From Candidatus Bathyarchaeia archaeon (GTDB taxonomy: Archaea > Thermoproteota > Bathyarchaeia > Bathyarchaeales > Bathycorpusculaceae), in assembly GCA_041447175.1 (NCBI GenBank), contig CP166960.1, forward strand, positions 62,001-126,000: DNA of 64,000 bases. The letters run 5' to 3'. This document shows positions 7,978-63,805 of the stretch, piece by piece. The notes under the pieces are model-generated. The model had not been told where the DNA came from. It ran no database searches and saw only the letters and a program-made list of their open reading frames with translations. Position numbers and translations under genes: made by a program. Within the stretch, counting starts at the first letter, position 1, and every line of letters begins with the position of its first letter.

Positions 7978-8018
7978 TTTCATAAAAGTTATGAATAAAT
8001 CTCAAATTGGTTTATATT
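7978..8018 (+). promoter_or_regulatory. Conserved operator plus TATA box (copy A)
   Basis: The block begins TTTCATAAAAGTTATG, continues with AATAAATC and ends in TTTATATT at 8011-8018. It aligns without gaps to the blocks at 60674-60714 and 62463-62503. The palindromic half is weaker here (TCTCAA instead of TCATAA). It precedes two tiny ORFs. Confidence 0.65.
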
Positions 8019-8059: not shown

Positions 8060-8149
8060 ATGAAAAATAACTTAAATAAACATCTCGAAGAAAACGCCGC
8101 AAGGTACCTCACAACCCCCGCTCACTTAAGCCTTAAGGCTTGCACGTAG
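8060..8149 (+). CDS. Putative small protein, 29 aa
   Basis: ATG 8060 opens a 29-codon frame (MKNNLNKHLEENAARY at its start) ending at TAG 8147-8149. A purine-rich GGAAGCAAGGTG lies upstream. An in-frame GTG at 8051 would add three residues. Support comes from its position 42 nt after the conserved operator/TATA block; the product is basic and hydrophilic. No family is recognised, and the frame is too short for codon statistics. Confidence 0.35.
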   Translation: MKNNLNKHLEENAARYLTTPAHLSLKACT

Positions 8150-56739: not shown

Positions 56740-57381
56740 TTGGAGGAATCTAAACTGGAAAATTTAGCCGGACCCATGGATTATGTCGATTTCCAGATAC
56801 TATGTTTACTGCAACAAGATTCAAGGCTAAGCTTCAATAAAATAGCCAACAAACTCGACATCTCGGTCGGAACAGCATTCAACCGCATCAAAAACCTGGA
56901 AAAAAGCGGCATTCTCAAAGGATACACAATCGTTCTGGACTCCGAGAAAATAGGCTACGGTTTAACTGCCCTAATCCTGATTCAAACTGAAGGGGGACAT
57001 TTAGCCGAAGTTGAAAAAGAAATCTCCAAATCCGCCAACGTCATCGCAATTTATGACATAACAGGAGACTACGACGCCGCTGTCATAACAAAATTCCAAG
57101 AAAGAGACCGCCTAAGCGTCTTCATAAAAAACCTCATGGCAGTTCCACATGTCAAAAGAACCGCAACCAGTGTCGCGCTGGAAGTAATCAAAGAGGAATT
57201 CCGAATAAACCTCCACGACGCCGACACCTCCGAAGTTCTAAATAAGAAAAAACAATGTCTACAACCTCATCGCGTAAAAAACACAGATAAAGAAAAAATC
57301 AATAAGGTCAAACTCCAAAAAAGCCGCTTAGAAACAAAAGCGTTTCAGCAAGAGATAGCTGAAGCTGCGAAAACAAGCTAA
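56740..57381 (+). CDS. Lrp/AsnC-family transcription regulator with C-terminal tail
   Basis: The HTH is clear (DYVDFQILCLLQQDSRLSFNKIANKLDISVGTAFNRIKNLEKSGILKGYTIVLD), followed by the RAM domain (NVIAIYDITGDYDAAVITKFQE). About 60 basic residues are added at the C-terminus compared with ordinary members. The start is TTG 56740 or ATG 56776, with GGAGGAATC just after the first. Ligand and targets are unknown; it is divergent from the CARDB gene. Confidence 0.85.
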   Translation: MEESKLENLAGPMDYVDFQILCLLQQDSRLSFNKIANKLDISVGTAFNRIKNLEKSGILKGYTIVLDSEKIGYGLTALILIQTEGGHLAEVEKEISKSANVIAIYDITGDYDAAVITKFQERDRLSVFIKNLMAVPHVKRTATSVALEVIKEEFRINLHDADTSEVLNKKKQCLQPHRVKNTDKEKINKVKLQKSRLETKAFQQEIAEAAKTS

Positions 57382-57571: not shown

Positions 57572-60333
57572 TTATGTTGAGTTTGGTTTTCTTCGTTTGG
57601 ATGCGATGTATTTTCCGATTTCCAAAGCTGCGAACACTATTCCAGCAAAGAGAGCCGCGATAACCCAGTCGAAAGGTTCTGGAGCGTGAACACCAAAGAT
57701 TTGTTGTATGCCTGGGGTGTAGAGTATGAATAGTTGTAGGGCGAAGGAGGAGAGTATTGCGTCGCAGATGTAGTTTGTTTTGAATAAGCCGTGACTTTTA
57801 AGACTGGTATTTGTAGGAACGTGAGGAAGTGCGATGGCGAGTTGATTAGGATCATGGCGGTTAGGAGTTGGGTGCGGGCTTCTAGGAGGTTGTATTCTCT
57901 GACCCAGGGTTGATGCAATAAAGTACACTAAGAGGAGTAGTGTTGAGAGAGTGCTGGGGATGCGACTAGAAGGTTAGATGTCGCGTGTGAAATGCTTCTT
58001 TGGTTTGCCGGGTTTGCGTTCCATGATGTCGGGGTCGCCGGGGTCTACGCCTAATGACGATTGAGGTGGGGTAAGCCGTCGGTGACTAGGTTCTCCAAAG
58101 CACTGCATCTGGCAGTAAACGCTATAGCGCACCTGCTGACTGTGGCAGGTCAGAGCCTGGAGTAACGTTGCGGCCAGGTTGGAACCAGGACGACGGCGAT
58201 GAACATGACAAGTGTATATTCATGATGGTCACAGCAGCAAGTAAGTGATTATTTTTGATGTTATCATAAATTTTCCCTACTACCCTCCTTGACTGCTTTG
58301 ACGATGCTAGCAAAATTATCATCCGCCAAAACCATGTCTGAGGCTTCTTTGGTGACTTCTGTGCCAGTGATGCCCATGGCTACGCCTATGTCTGCCATTT
58401 TCAGTGCTGGTGCATCGTTGACGCCGTCGCCAGTCATGGCTACAACTTGGTCTCTTTGCTTCCATGCTTGGACGATGCGCATTTTATGTTCAGGCGCAAC
58501 TCGAGCATAGATGACTACGTTTTCTACGACTTGCTGGAGTTCTTGGTCGCTCATTTTTTCAAGTTCGGCGCCGGTGAGGACTTTGCTTTCAGTGTCGTTT
58601 TCGCCAACTAAGTTGAGTTCTTTGGCGACTGCTGTGGCGGTTAGTTTATGGTCGCCTGTTATCATGACTACTCGGATGCCTGCTTTTCTGCAGATGGCGA
58701 TGGCGTCTTTGACTTCGTTGCGGGGCGGGTCAATCATACCCATAATCCCCACGAAAACAAAGCCCTCTTCGATTTCTTCGCCAAAGTTTGTGGTGTCAGG
58801 TGGGAGTTCTTTGTAGGCGAATCCTAGGTTTCTCAGCGCTTGTAGTGCCATGGCTTCCGTGATTTTGTGTAGGTCAGCGTTTTGCTCAGGCGTGATTTTT
58901 TGAACTTTCCCGTTTACTAGTATGTGTGTGCATTTCGATAGGATGATTTCTGGTGCGCCTTTCATGTATGCCATGCGTGTGTTGCCGACTTGGTGGATGG
59001 TGGTCATGCGTTTGCGTTCGCTGCTGAAGGGAATCTCTGCGATGCGGGGTTCTTGCTGGTCAAGCTCCTGCTTTTGTAGGTCGGCTTTGGCGGCTGCAAC
59101 AATGAGGGCGCCTTCAGTGGGGTCCCCTTTCACGGTCCATTTCTGGGTTTGAGTGTCTCTCTCTAAAGCCGAATCGTTGCAGAGGGTGGCGATTTTTAGG
59201 AGTTTTTTGAGTTGTACGTCGGGGGTTACTTGTTTGTTTTCGTTTTCAAAAGTGCCCTCAGGCGCATATCCAATACCAGTAACTTTGACAGCAGTATTAT
59301 TAGTGAAAATGCGCTGAACCGTCATTTCACCCTTAGTCATGGTACCGGTCTTGTCACTACAGATGACGCTGGTGCAGCCAAGCGTTTCAACCGCAGGAAG
59401 CCGCTTCACGACAGTGCTGACTTTCGCCATGCGGTACATTCCTATGGCTAGCGCGCCTGTGACAATCGCGGGCAAAGCTTCGGGCACTGCAGCAACCGCG
59501 AGGCTGACCGCCCACAAAACCATGTCCAACACAGGGCGTTGCTCAACAAGAATTCCAACAGACGCTACACCGATGCAGACTGTTATGCAAAGGATTCCTA
59601 TCCATTTGCCTACTGATGCCATTCGTTTTTCGAGTGGTGTTGTTTCGGTTTCGGTGCTTTGGACCATTTGGGCAATTTTGCCAAACTCAGTGTTCATACC
59701 GGTTGTGGTGGCTAAGGCTTTGGCTCTACCATAAGCAACAATTGTTCCTGTATAAAGCATGTTTTTGCGGTCGTTAAGTTGGGTGTTTTCAGGGAGGGCA
59801 TCAGTTTGCTTGTTGACTGGTGCTGATTCGCCTGTTAATGCAGCTTCATCTATTTTGAGGTTATGCGCTTCCAAAAGTCTTGCGTCCGCAGAGACTTTGT
59901 CCCCCGTGTAAACAAGAAGTATGTCTCCGGGAACAATTTGGCTAGCAGGAATCTTCGTTTCTTTTCCATCACGAAGAACAATGGCGCTTGGGGCCGTCAT
60001 CTTTTTCAAGGCTTCAACGGCCTTTTCAGACCGGTATTCTTGTGTGAAGCCCAGAGTTGCGCTGGCTATGACTATGATTAAGATGATGATTGCGTCGACG
60101 GTTTCGCCGATGACTATTGAGAGCCCGGTGGCGACAAGCAGAATTATCATCAGCACATCGGTGAATTGGCCTAAGAACAGTTTGATTGGTGAAGTTTTTT
60201 TCTCTTTTGTCAACTCGTTGGGGCCGTAGGTAGCTAAACGTTTCGTTGCTTCTTCGGATGTTAAGCCGTTTTCTGTGACGTTGAGTTCTTGCATTGCCTC
60301 TTCTGTTTTTAGTGCATGCAGAGGTTTTGACAC
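57572..60333 (-). pseudogene. P-type cation-transporting ATPase, C-terminal third decayed
   Basis: Residues 1-689 (60333-58264) are an intact Ca2+/Na+-type P-ATPase: N-terminal cation_ATPase_N domain, LTGESAPV, the phosphorylation site DKTGTMTKG (Asp about 326), KGDPTEGAL, MITGDHKLTA, MTGDGVNDAPAL. It stops at VKEGSRENL, where M5-M10 should follow. Downstream, fragments in several frames match the missing part: GKIYDNIK, LVMFIAVVL, NLVTDGLP, LGVDPGDPDIMERKP, LEARTQLLTAMILIN and SSFALQLFILYTPGIQQIFG to the end at 57572. At least five frame changes lie in about 500 bp. The gene is non-functional as read, unless this stretch is badly sequenced. Confidence 0.8.
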
Positions 60334-60738
60334 AGCATTATTTCACTCCAATGTCAGCTACCACTTGCGAAGACAGTTATAGGCTTTTCTGAATGTTTTT
60401 AAGAAATATGCACAGTGGTGTTGAAGATTTGTGGTCAATCACCGCAAAAACTGTGGGTTCTGTGGACATCGTGTGGCGAGAAAATATGTGTTGTCAAGCC
60501 GAGTTTTTGCCTCTTTTTTCTTGTAGTTTGGGTGGTTAGTTTGAGTGGTTGTGGTGGGTGTTTTCTTGGCAATTCGGATTTTCTTGGCTTTGTTGGGTTT
60601 TTGTGCTGGGTTTGTGTGGCGCTTAGGTATGATTGTTTAAAATTTCGACATTATTATGTGCATTTTTTCTTTTTTTCTTAAAAGTTATGAACAAATCATA
60701 ACTAAGCTTATATTTCTCAAACACAGCATGACCGTCAA
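60334..60738. other. Intergenic stretch before the ammonium transporter
   Basis: No gene or RNA was recognised. The right end contains the conserved operator/TATA block. Confidence 0.4.
60674..60714 (+). promoter_or_regulatory. Conserved operator plus TATA box (copy B, ammonium transporter)
   Basis: The block starts TTTCTTAAAAGTTATGA. It contains the perfect inverted repeat GTTATGA-ACAAA-TCATAAC and ends in the TATA element CTTATATT. The gene's first start codon is 25 nt after the TATA box. It aligns without gaps with the blocks at 7978-8018 and 62463-62503. Confidence 0.75.
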
Positions 60739-60741
60739 TTG

Positions 60742-62277
60742 GTGAATAAGATGAATAAAGAGGGAATACTAAGAAAAGCATCTGGTATTGCAGAAAAAGT
60801 GATTTCTAATCATTCGACGCTATTCATGCAAAAGAAATGGTACTTGCTCGCAGGCATTCTCGCTACTTGCTTAGCTATGAGCGTAGGCAGAGCATTTGCG
60901 CAAACTGGTAACCCATTGGCAGACACTGGCACAGCAATAAGCATGGCTTGGACTCTTGCCATGGGCGCGTTAGTCTGGTTCATGCAGTTGGGCTTCGCGT
61001 TCCTTGGCGCTGGCTACATTAGACACAAGAACCAAGTCAACTACTGGTCAAAGAGTTACATTGACTTCAGCATCGGTGTTGTCTTATTTGCGTTGGTCGG
61101 CTTCGGTTTGATGTTCGGTGGTTCAGGGGCAGGTTTCCCAACAGGCTTTGACTCTGCTGGTGAAATAATTTTCACAACTCTTCCAGGACTAGACCACGGA
61201 AACGCCTTCATAGGTTATTCCGGGTTTGCTTTAGCAGGCGACGCATACAACGGTTTAACGTTAACCTACTTCTTCTGGCAAGCCGTGTTCGCAGCCACAT
61301 CAGTTACTATCGTCGCTGGAATGGTTGCCGGAAGAATGAAGTTCAAGGCATACCTGATCTACACCTTGTTGATTAACATCCTTATCTACCCCGTATACGG
61401 CCACTGGGTCTGGGGAGGCGGATGGTTATCACAGCTAGGCGCGTTAGACTTCGCCGGTTCAGGTGTAGTCCACGCGGTCGGTGGCTTCACAGGTTTGGCA
61501 GGCGCATTGCTCATTGGTCCAAGAATAGGCAAATACACCAAAGACGGTAAACCTCGTTCGTTCGGCTACACAAACGTCCCCTACATTGTGATAGGTACCA
61601 TGATTCTGTTCTTCGGCTGGTTTGGTTTCAACCCTGGAAGCACACTGACAACATTGGACTTTAGAACTCCCATAGTCGCTACAAACACGTACCTTGCAGG
61701 CGGTGCAGCCGCGGCATTGGCAGTCTTCATAACGTACTTTGACCGCAAGAACTTTAAGGGCGCAGACATTTCGGCCATTTGCTGTTCCGCTTTGGGCGGT
61801 CTAGTTGCAATCACGGCACCATGTGCATATGTACCTCCATGGGCAGCAATCATCATAGGCTTCATCGCAGCTCCAATCACAATCTACGGTAACTTCTTCG
61901 TAGAACGGAAACTGAAGATTGACGACCCAGTGGGCGCATTTGGTGTCCACGGACTCAACGGTATCTTTGGTCTGCTTGCAGTTGGTCTCTTTGCGGACGG
62001 AACATACGGCGTACAAGGTGTCTTGATAAACGGCGCGGCAGGTCTCGAACAGCTAACCGCACAGTTGATTTCCGCTGGTGTTTGCGCTGGTTACGCGTTC
62101 GGTATGGGTCTGCTGATATTCGGTCTGATCAAGTACACAGTTGGTCTGCGTGTTCCAGCCAAAGAAGAAATCGAGGGCTTGGATGCGACAGAACACGGAT
62201 TCGTTGCCTACCCAGAAGTGGTCATGAAGCCAGAAGACCCTGCATGGTTGGGCAAAGAAGACGGCAAAACAAAGTAG
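60742..62277 (+). CDS. amt: Ammonium transporter (Amt/Rh family)
   Basis: Amt proteins move ammonium into the cell. About 11-12 helices are visible, with family stretches such as AMSVGRAFAQ, WFMQLGFAFLGAGYIRHKNQVNY, FFWQAVFAATSVTIVAG, YPVYGHWVWGGGWL, DFAGSGVVHAVGGFTGLAGALLIGPRIGKY, GWFGFNPGSTL, and GVHGLNGIFGLLAVGLFADGTYG with the pore His. The GTG at 60742 or ATG 60751 is the start; TTG 60739 opens the frame. No glnK lies next to it. The operator/TATA block upstream suggests nitrogen control. Confidence 0.95.
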   Translation: MNKMNKEGILRKASGIAEKVISNHSTLFMQKKWYLLAGILATCLAMSVGRAFAQTGNPLADTGTAISMAWTLAMGALVWFMQLGFAFLGAGYIRHKNQVNYWSKSYIDFSIGVVLFALVGFGLMFGGSGAGFPTGFDSAGEIIFTTLPGLDHGNAFIGYSGFALAGDAYNGLTLTYFFWQAVFAATSVTIVAGMVAGRMKFKAYLIYTLLINILIYPVYGHWVWGGGWLSQLGALDFAGSGVVHAVGGFTGLAGALLIGPRIGKYTKDGKPRSFGYTNVPYIVIGTMILFFGWFGFNPGSTLTTLDFRTPIVATNTYLAGGAAAALAVFITYFDRKNFKGADISAICCSALGGLVAITAPCAYVPPWAAIIIGFIAAPITIYGNFFVERKLKIDDPVGAFGVHGLNGIFGLLAVGLFADGTYGVQGVLINGAAGLEQLTAQLISAGVCAGYAFGMGLLIFGLIKYTVGLRVPAKEEIEGLDATEHGFVAYPEVVMKPEDPAWLGKEDGKTK

Positions 62278-62462
62278 TTCCAACCCAAAAACCCCTCTTC
62301 CTTTTTTTGTCTGAATTTTTCGAATGCAAATGAGCCTCTTTCTTTGTGTTTCTGAAGGGATTTAGGGTTTTGAAGATTTTTTAAAATGATTGTCGCTACC
62401 ATGCCGCTTTTGGTGGTGCAGATATTTAGTTAAACTCTGTTTTTGTGTATGTATATCCATTT

Positions 62463-62503
62463 TTTCATAAAAGTTATGCACAAATCATAAATAGTTTTAT
62501 ATT
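62463..62503 (+). promoter_or_regulatory. Conserved operator plus TATA box (copy C, permease)
   Basis: The block starts TTTCATAAAAGTTATGC and contains GTTATGC-ACAAA-TCATAAA, ending in TTTATATT. It lies 48 nt before the permease start. It has the same spacing as copies A and B. Confidence 0.75.
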
Positions 62504-62551: not shown

Positions 62552-63805
62552 TTGCCTATAGATGCTCAAATCCTGATTCTGCCGGTGTTCATAGCTTGCT
62601 ATGCGCTTGCTTTAAGTCGAAAAGTAAAGCTTTCCTACGTTTCAGTAGGGGCATTGGGTATATTGATGATTCTGGGGCTCATCTCTTGGCAAGACACCCT
62701 CTTCAACGCCATACAGTGGGATGTGCTCGCGGTCATTTGGGGCTTTATGATGGTTTCCTTCATCTTCTCCGAAAGCAAAATGCCCGAACTCATCGCAAAC
62801 AAGATTCTAACTCACATCAAAACTGAAAAGTACGCTCTACTGGCAATCTGTTCCGTTGCAGCTTTCCTTTCCGCTTTCATGGCAAACGTGGCCGTGCTTT
62901 TCCTCATGGCGCCCGTCGCTATCCACATGGCTAAAAAACTGGGTTCCCCCCTCTTTCCCTACATCGTTTCTGTGGGTGTATGCTCCAACATGGTGACCAC
63001 AACCACTATGATTGCTGACCCCCCTGCACTTATCCTAGCCATCCAAACTGGGTTAAGACCCTTAGACTTCTACTGGTTCCAAGGCAACCTTGGATTAGGA
63101 GCGATAACCGTTGTCGGTGTCGTTGCTGCCCTGCTCACCCTTCTTGTGATGTTTAGAAAAATGAACAAGCGCATAGAAATTGAGCCAGAGGAAATCAAAG
63201 TTGCCAAGCTGCCCAGTGTGCTGTTCTTGGGCGGCGTCATTGTGTTGTCTTTGGCTCCTGAATTCGGACTTAGCTTAGGCGCAGTTGGGCTGGCAGTGGG
63301 CATAATTGCCCTCGTTATGGGCGGCAAGCAGGCACCCAAAATGATGAAGGAATTCGACTGGGATTCCCTCATATTCTTAGCCGCCATCTTCGGCGTAATC
63401 TATGCCGTAACCACTTCCGGGCTCTTAACCGATGCAGCCCAAGCTCTAATAACAAGCGGCGCCAATAGCCCGCCATTGTTGCTCGGCATCTTAACTTGGA
63501 TGTCCGTTGGGCTATCCACATTCATCGATCCAAACGCGTACACCGTGCTCATGATTCCCATCGGTCAACAACTGGCTGCCATGGCCGGTATGAGTGCTTG
63601 GCCTCTGCTCTTTGGTGTCCTCATTGGAACGGGAAGCGGGGCAAACATTCTGCCTATGGGTGCAGCGACCAACGTGTTTGCTTGCGGCTTACTGGAGAAG
63701 CATAACTGCTTAGTGAGCACCAAGGAATACATGAAGATTGGGCTGCCGCTGTCAGTTGTTGCGGTGGGTGTGGCGTTTGTGCTCCTATGGATACTATGGT
63801 TGTGA
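62552..63805 (+). CDS. ArsB/NhaD/SLC13-type permease
   Basis: The 417-residue protein has about 11 hydrophobic segments and family motifs of the ion transporter superfamily: SAFMANVAVLFLMAPVAIHMAKKLG, SVGVCSNMVTTTTMIADPPALI, and in the second half LSTFIDPNAYTVLMIPIGQQLAAM and GTGSGANILPMGAATNVFACG. These are substrate/cation hairpins of DASS/ArsB/NhaD permeases. The substrate is unknown. The TTG at 62552 opens the frame; no strong Shine-Dalgarno site is visible. It carries the same operator as the amt gene. Confidence 0.85.
   Translation: MPIDAQILILPVFIACYALALSRKVKLSYVSVGALGILMILGLISWQDTLFNAIQWDVLAVIWGFMMVSFIFSESKMPELIANKILTHIKTEKYALLAICSVAAFLSAFMANVAVLFLMAPVAIHMAKKLGSPLFPYIVSVGVCSNMVTTTTMIADPPALILAIQTGLRPLDFYWFQGNLGLGAITVVGVVAALLTLLVMFRKMNKRIEIEPEEIKVAKLPSVLFLGGVIVLSLAPEFGLSLGAVGLAVGIIALVMGGKQAPKMMKEFDWDSLIFLAAIFGVIYAVTTSGLLTDAAQALITSGANSPPLLLGILTWMSVGLSTFIDPNAYTVLMIPIGQQLAAMAGMSAWPLLFGVLIGTGSGANILPMGAATNVFACGLLEKHNCLVSTKEYMKIGLPLSVVAVGVAFVLLWILWL

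Follow-up and report, generated by a model that had tools for sequence, protein, structure and literature searches.

Putative operator blocks at three promoters

The window analysed here is a stretch of 64,000 nucleotides, taken from positions 62001-126000 of a Bathyarchaeia genome that consists of one contig of 2,733,033 bp. It contains an ammonium transporter gene (amt), a permease gene directly behind it and a micro-ORF locus beside nth, each preceded by a similar promoter block (7978-8018, 60674-60714 and 62463-62503). After re-alignment, the three blocks matched each other without gaps, as the original prediction had claimed over 41 bp. The relevant features, all on the forward strand, are as follows.

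7979-7995, forward: putative operator dyad TTCATAA-N3-TTATGAA, site 1 (micro-ORF locus beside nth), from pattern match and block alignment
7996-8006, forward: conserved extension TAAATCTCAAA between dyad and TATA box, site 1, from site alignment
8011-8017, forward: TATA box TTTATAT, site 1
8060-8149, forward: 29-aa ORF MKNNLNKHLEENAARYLTTPAHLSLKACT after site 1, like the type-A micro-ORFs of relatives in position and length
56740-57381, forward: Lrp/AsnC regulator (start maybe nearer 56779), a candidate partner and not the favoured regulator
60675-60691, forward: putative operator dyad, site 2 (amt), from pattern match
60692-60702, forward: extension CAAATCATAAC with third half-site, site 2
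60707-60713, forward: TATA box CTTATAT, site 2
60751-62277, forward: amt, ammonium transporter (PF00909, 375 bits; TIGR00836 above cut-off)
62464-62480, forward: putative operator dyad, site 3 (permease), from pattern match
62481-62491, forward: extension CAAATCATAAA with third half-site, site 3
62496-62502, forward: TATA box TTTATAT, site 3
62552-63805, forward: CitMHS-family permease (PF03600, 158 bits)

Two further observations concern the genes upstream of amt. The Lrp protein carries a basic C-terminal extension of about 60 aa which is missing in its relatives, and a P-type cation ATPase on the minus strand (57572-60333) is spread over two reading frames, separated by stops, and resembles a pseudogene.

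The site is rare. Searching the window for AAAAGTTATGNANAAATCNNAA with up to three mismatches yielded four matches, compared with 0.16 expected from shuffled sequences, and the exact matches were the three named blocks, which are also the only ones in the entire genome (2.73 Mb).

Dyad symmetry and spacing to the TATA box

The inverted repeat GTTATGA-N5-TCATAAC, previously described as perfect in the amt copy, was confirmed for that copy but failed as the general symmetric core. Over 50 distinct sites from Bathyarchaeia, it showed on average only 4.9 of 7 matched pairs and was perfect in four, and we rejected it as the operator dyad. A better symmetry, TTCATAA-N3-TTATGAA, emerged once the upstream half was added (mean of 6.2 of 7 matched pairs, perfect in 18 of the 50 sites). 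The consensus of these sites reads TTCATAA-N3-TTATGAA-C-AAATC(T/A)(C/T)AAC-TANN-TTTATAT.

Because the set of 50 sites had been pre-filtered for a TATA box at a fixed offset, the spacing had to be assessed without that filter. Using a core pattern devoid of the TATA box, we found a TATA element (at least 5 of 7 positions) at position 33 in 14 of 15 exact matches and in 18 of 25 matches with one mismatch. The single exception among the exact matches has a 4/7 box at position 33, and the seven exceptions with one mismatch are apparently cases of the dyad being read from the opposite strand. The constant distance to the TATA box claimed earlier is upheld. Measured from centre to centre, the dyad lies about 27 bp upstream of the TATA box, which would place it roughly at −53 from the transcription start, assuming the usual TATA-to-start distance. 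The extension AAATC(T/A)(C/T)AAC represents a third, looser half-site abutting the TFB-recognition position, with about 10 bp from one half-site centre to the next. It is nearly as conserved as the dyad within the Bathyarchaeia, but differs in Methanothrix and in a distant family of Thermoproteota (see below).

Sites and targets in the genome

Using the TATA-inclusive pattern with up to three mismatches, we obtained nine matches in the genome, compared with one for a reversed-pattern control, and each of the nine faces a TATA-like box at the same constant offset. A random distribution of the motif, which would have refuted the original prediction, is not borne out by these roughly nine TATA-associated, gene-facing sites in 2.73 Mb. 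Apart from the three sites in the window, the following were found.

About 798 kb: precedes a TFS-like Zn-ribbon ORF
About 880 kb: precedes micro-ORFs, behind which a stand-alone Lrp ligand-binding domain is encoded
About 1855 kb: precedes micro-ORFs
About 1988 kb: precedes a 98-aa Zn-ribbon ORF
About 2247 kb: precedes a 93-aa ORF; weakest of the nine
About 2710 kb: precedes glnA

The earlier suggestion to look for the motif at glnA therefore gave a positive result in this genome. The genome contains two glnA genes (G000:C1:2709740 and 1677348), and only the first carries the site. The site is absent from glnA of the closest ortholog (G143), and glnA was rejected as a general target, since an upstream site was found only in the genome studied here. 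No site was detected upstream of a second amt gene located just past the window (G000:C1:126503-127735).

Conservation at amt in relatives and in distant archaea

All seven close Amt orthologs (in G000, G033, G099, G143, G181, G183 and G184) are preceded by the site with the TATA box in phase, so the second potential refutation, absence of the motif from amt in close relatives, is not borne out either. Six of the seven loci have a second copy of the site before the next gene, and in four of these genomes that gene, directly after amt, codes for the CitMHS permease. No site was found at a second Amt type of the same genomes in the loci examined.

Conservation of the element also extends to a distant family. 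A search of the phylum retrieved homologs (34-44% identity) of a ribbon-helix-helix (RHH) protein, introduced below as the candidate regulator, in one further, distant family of Thermoproteota. We fetched nine of its RHH loci, six of them with an adjacent amt gene. In all six, the RHH gene (35-42% identity of the protein) is divergent from amt and the dyad lies between them (1-2 mismatches); amt is accompanied in this family by PII-like and glutamate-synthase-like genes. The other three loci, from genus g135, lack an adjacent amt, and their dyad is a weak variant or absent.

We also scored 30 named amt loci using a dyad pattern with up to one mismatch and G allowed at one position, which had been widened after the Methanothrix loci were seen. 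In 12 loci, namely ten of Methanotrichaceae and two of Bathyarchaeia, the dyad occurred in the 300 bp preceding the amt match, against a background of 15 dyad matches elsewhere in 284,770 bp. The amt-glnK promoters of Methanothrix that were printed carry the dyad with a TATA box at the same offset. The stretches of about 11 kb fetched around Methanothrix amt, which do not represent whole genomes, yielded no RHH gene. Three Methanothrix loci (L022, L026 and L028) contain a dyad before amt-glnK and a second, opposite-strand amt-glnK pair with one or two upstream dyads; two of these loci have an additional dyad, with one mismatch, before another gene that follows the first glnK.

The core nitrogen genes among the targets are thus amt (7/7 orthologs), glnA (this genome) and amt-glnK (Methanothrix). 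They support the previous guess of a nitrogen-status regulator, while the nitrogen response itself is inferred.

An RHH protein as candidate regulator

The candidate is an RHH protein of about 178 aa, encoded outside of the window beside an Lrp paralog (G000:C1:1178983-1179513, 177 aa) and present in 16 of 151 Bathyarchaeia genomes. Strict motif matches (up to one mismatch, TATA box included) occurred in 13 of the 16 genomes with the RHH gene and in none of the 135 without it (Fisher test, 2.8e-16). The same pattern was observed within the family (12/14 vs. 0/19) and within genus g12 (7/7 vs. 0/8, p 1.6e-4). These p-values overstate the evidence because the genomes are related and not independent, and all genome searches draw on the same sampled genomes. 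RHH-containing genomes without a strict match include G013 and G170, the latter with a weak variant only; genome G097 has neither a listed RHH match nor a motif match. Since the switch was found in this comparison only in genomes also carrying the RHH protein, this protein is probably the regulator.

The RHH gene is also linked to the site. In many genomes, about 70-250 bp separate its end from a site directed at the gene that follows. The orders observed are Lrp-RHH-[site]-KaiC-Amt (G001, G003, G023, G025 and G043, although Lrp was not seen on every contig), Lrp-RHH-[site]-Amt1 (G033), nth|RHH-[site]-micro-ORFs (G059, G143, G183 and G184) and RHH-[site]-micro-ORFs (G150 and G159). Physical linkage alone does not explain the co-occurrence, because in the genome studied here the RHH gene is at least 290 kb away from every site.

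Co-occurrence and linkage are computed results, whereas DNA binding by the RHH protein is inferred. Its N-terminus matches the RHH_1 domain (PF01402; 31.4 and 29.2 bits, cut-off 20.5), and the putative DNA-contacting strand NPTRITVAFD is invariant in 14/14 aligned proteins. The C-terminal domain contains invariant His, Asp and Cys residues and is uncharacterised; its ligand can only be inferred. A fold model, based on a two-row alignment, was poor (pLDDT of 66) and gave no Foldseek match at E<=0.001, and sequence searches against the PDB yielded weak matches (best E 0.04-0.11). In the literature searched, we found no report of ammonium transporters being regulated by an archaeal RHH protein. 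A pull-down had been suggested for naming the regulator; as a correction, a candidate can be proposed in silico.

Micro-ORFs behind the sites

Three families of micro-ORFs recur after the sites: family A of about 29 aa and acidic, family B of about 23 aa ending in ...YFTHI, and family C of about 37 aa with one hydrophobic stretch (single-TM). They also occur in tandem as A+C and B+C. Pairwise comparisons within family A gave synonymous versus nonsynonymous differences of 0.53 vs. 0.15 and 0.73 vs. 0.27 (no significance test), whereas the window copy (8060-8149) showed no sign of purifying selection (0.39 vs. 0.43) and may be degenerate or non-coding. Families B and C were compared at the protein level only. 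The tiny ORFs proposed originally thus held in part: several belong to conserved families, but the window copy is apparently not conserved.

Proposed regulon

We consider it likely (probability of about 0.72) that an RHH_1/CopG-type factor controls a small regulon with the three blocks among its operators, although there are no binding or expression data. Its predicted targets comprise amt and the permease gene, glnA, genes for small Zn-ribbon proteins, and operons of micro-ORFs. RHH dimers would sit next to TFB/TBP, and could share one helix face given the distance of about 10 bp between half-site centres. The sign of control is inferred. The factor may be an activator recruiting TFB/TBP under nitrogen scarcity, or a repressor released under the same condition. 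We lean slightly towards the activator because the TATA spacing is fixed, without excluding the repressor; a dyad at fixed spacing upstream of the BRE position would suit an activator touching TFB/TBP. With corrections to the dyad, the route to the regulator and the tiny ORFs, the original interpretation is supported overall.

There is also a bolder reading, which we consider possible but clearly less likely than not. In this reading, TTCATAA-N3-(T/G)TATGAA would be a nitrogen operator of ancient origin in archaea, kept at a constant distance from the TATA box and read by RHH proteins with a new sensor domain across Thermoproteota and Methanothrix. It would work without NrpR and drive amt(-glnK) together with paired microproteins tuning the transporter.

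Naming a putative operator and one candidate regulator gene for the Bathyarchaeia, an abundant sediment lineage, reduces the question to a single binding assay, for a nitrogen-uptake programme previously without a known controller. The promoter-linked micro-ORF families have likely been overlooked by gene callers, and the cross-lineage match in Methanothrix points to a methanogen in which the same system could be sought.

Alternative explanations

An Lrp/AsnC protein, either from the window (56740-57381) or the paralog beside the RHH gene, might bind the dyad in a manner similar to Sa-Lrp, which is glutamine-responsive and binds glnA and gltB regions (PMC3584215). This was initially favoured by linkage: in most genomes with sites, Lrp orthologs are neighbours of amt or RHH, those of the window Lrp adjoin amt or RHH-amt clusters in six relatives, and one Lrp gene (G181) has a site upstream. 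We demoted Lrp because it is nearly universal and the motif is not: its relatives occur in 136 of 151 Bathyarchaeia genomes, nearly all motif-free, compared with 13 containing strict sites. Many genomes lacking RHH have Lrp divergent from glnA, often with a different element, approximately TGAACA-N2-TGTTCA, between them; its best match had up to three mismatches in 16/16 scored regions (several from close relatives; no shuffled control). Presence of Lrp does not track the sites, and we regard it as an unlikely regulator. A composite operator, in which RHH would bind the dyad while Lrp or some other factor occupies the AAATC(T/A)(C/T)AAC extension, is possible though not likely, and is compatible with the RHH reading. 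It would fit the conservation of the extension in Bathyarchaeia and its difference in Methanothrix and the distant family, the neighbouring Lrp and RHH genes in many genomes, and the TGAACA at the dyad end, which equals half of the Lrp-glnA element. Against it, the extension can also be read as a third half-site (TCATAA) 10 bp further on, and there are RHH-containing loci without an adjacent Lrp.

The same RHH regulator may respond to a signal other than nitrogen, such as a metal ion or membrane stress, with amt as one target among transport genes. The CitMHS permease, Na+/H+ exchanger neighbourhoods and Zn-ribbon proteins among the targets speak for this, as do the invariant His/Asp/Cys residues; NikR, an RHH protein, senses nickel. 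Such a signal nevertheless appears improbable, as amt is the most constant target, glnA is included in the genome studied here, and the distant family combines amt with PII-like and glutamate-synthase-like genes, while Methanothrix has amt-glnK. That the element is merely a lineage-specific extended core promoter, i.e. a BRE/TATA variant without operator function, would account for its fixed position relative to the TATA box, but can practically be ruled out by the dyad symmetry, the conservation beyond the class and the presence of about nine sites per genome with none in relatives lacking RHH.

Comparison with known systems

The NrpR regulon of methanogens likewise represents promoter-level control of nitrogen-assimilation genes in archaea, and a small RNA is among its reported targets. 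NrpR was rejected as the regulator because its gene is missing: PF01995 gave no matches in the genome or in any same-genus genome searched. Its operator in Methanosarcina mazei, GGTA-N6-TACC (PMC3177094), is unrelated to the sites, and no such element occurs in the 50-site consensus. Sa-Lrp of Sulfolobus acidocaldarius is comparable as a nitrogen-gene regulator of a non-euryarchaeal archaeon, and Lrp genes are neighbours here, but it belongs to the Lrp/AsnC family, whose presence does not track the motif.

The RHH repressor NikR shares the RHH N-terminal domain, a dyad operator (GTATGA-N16-TCATAC; PMC7055735) and the half-site TATGA. The R-x-T pattern in the RHH strand resembles that of NikR, which provides no more than a lead. 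In contrast to NikR, the spacer is 3 here, the half-sites are in opposite orientation and the targets are nitrogen-related; a NikR nickel-binding domain was not among the Pfam matches of the RHH C-terminus at E<=0.5. TFB-RF1 of Pyrococcus furiosus, an archaeal activator recruiting TFB at weak BREs (PMC5937170), is a different protein and serves as a mechanistic model only. The 61-aa protein sP36 of Methanosarcina mazei differs in size from the micro-ORFs observed here (23-40 aa; no sequence comparison), but it binds AmtB1 and GlnK1 (PMC10714827) and thus offers a parallel as an archaeal microprotein acting on ammonium transport.
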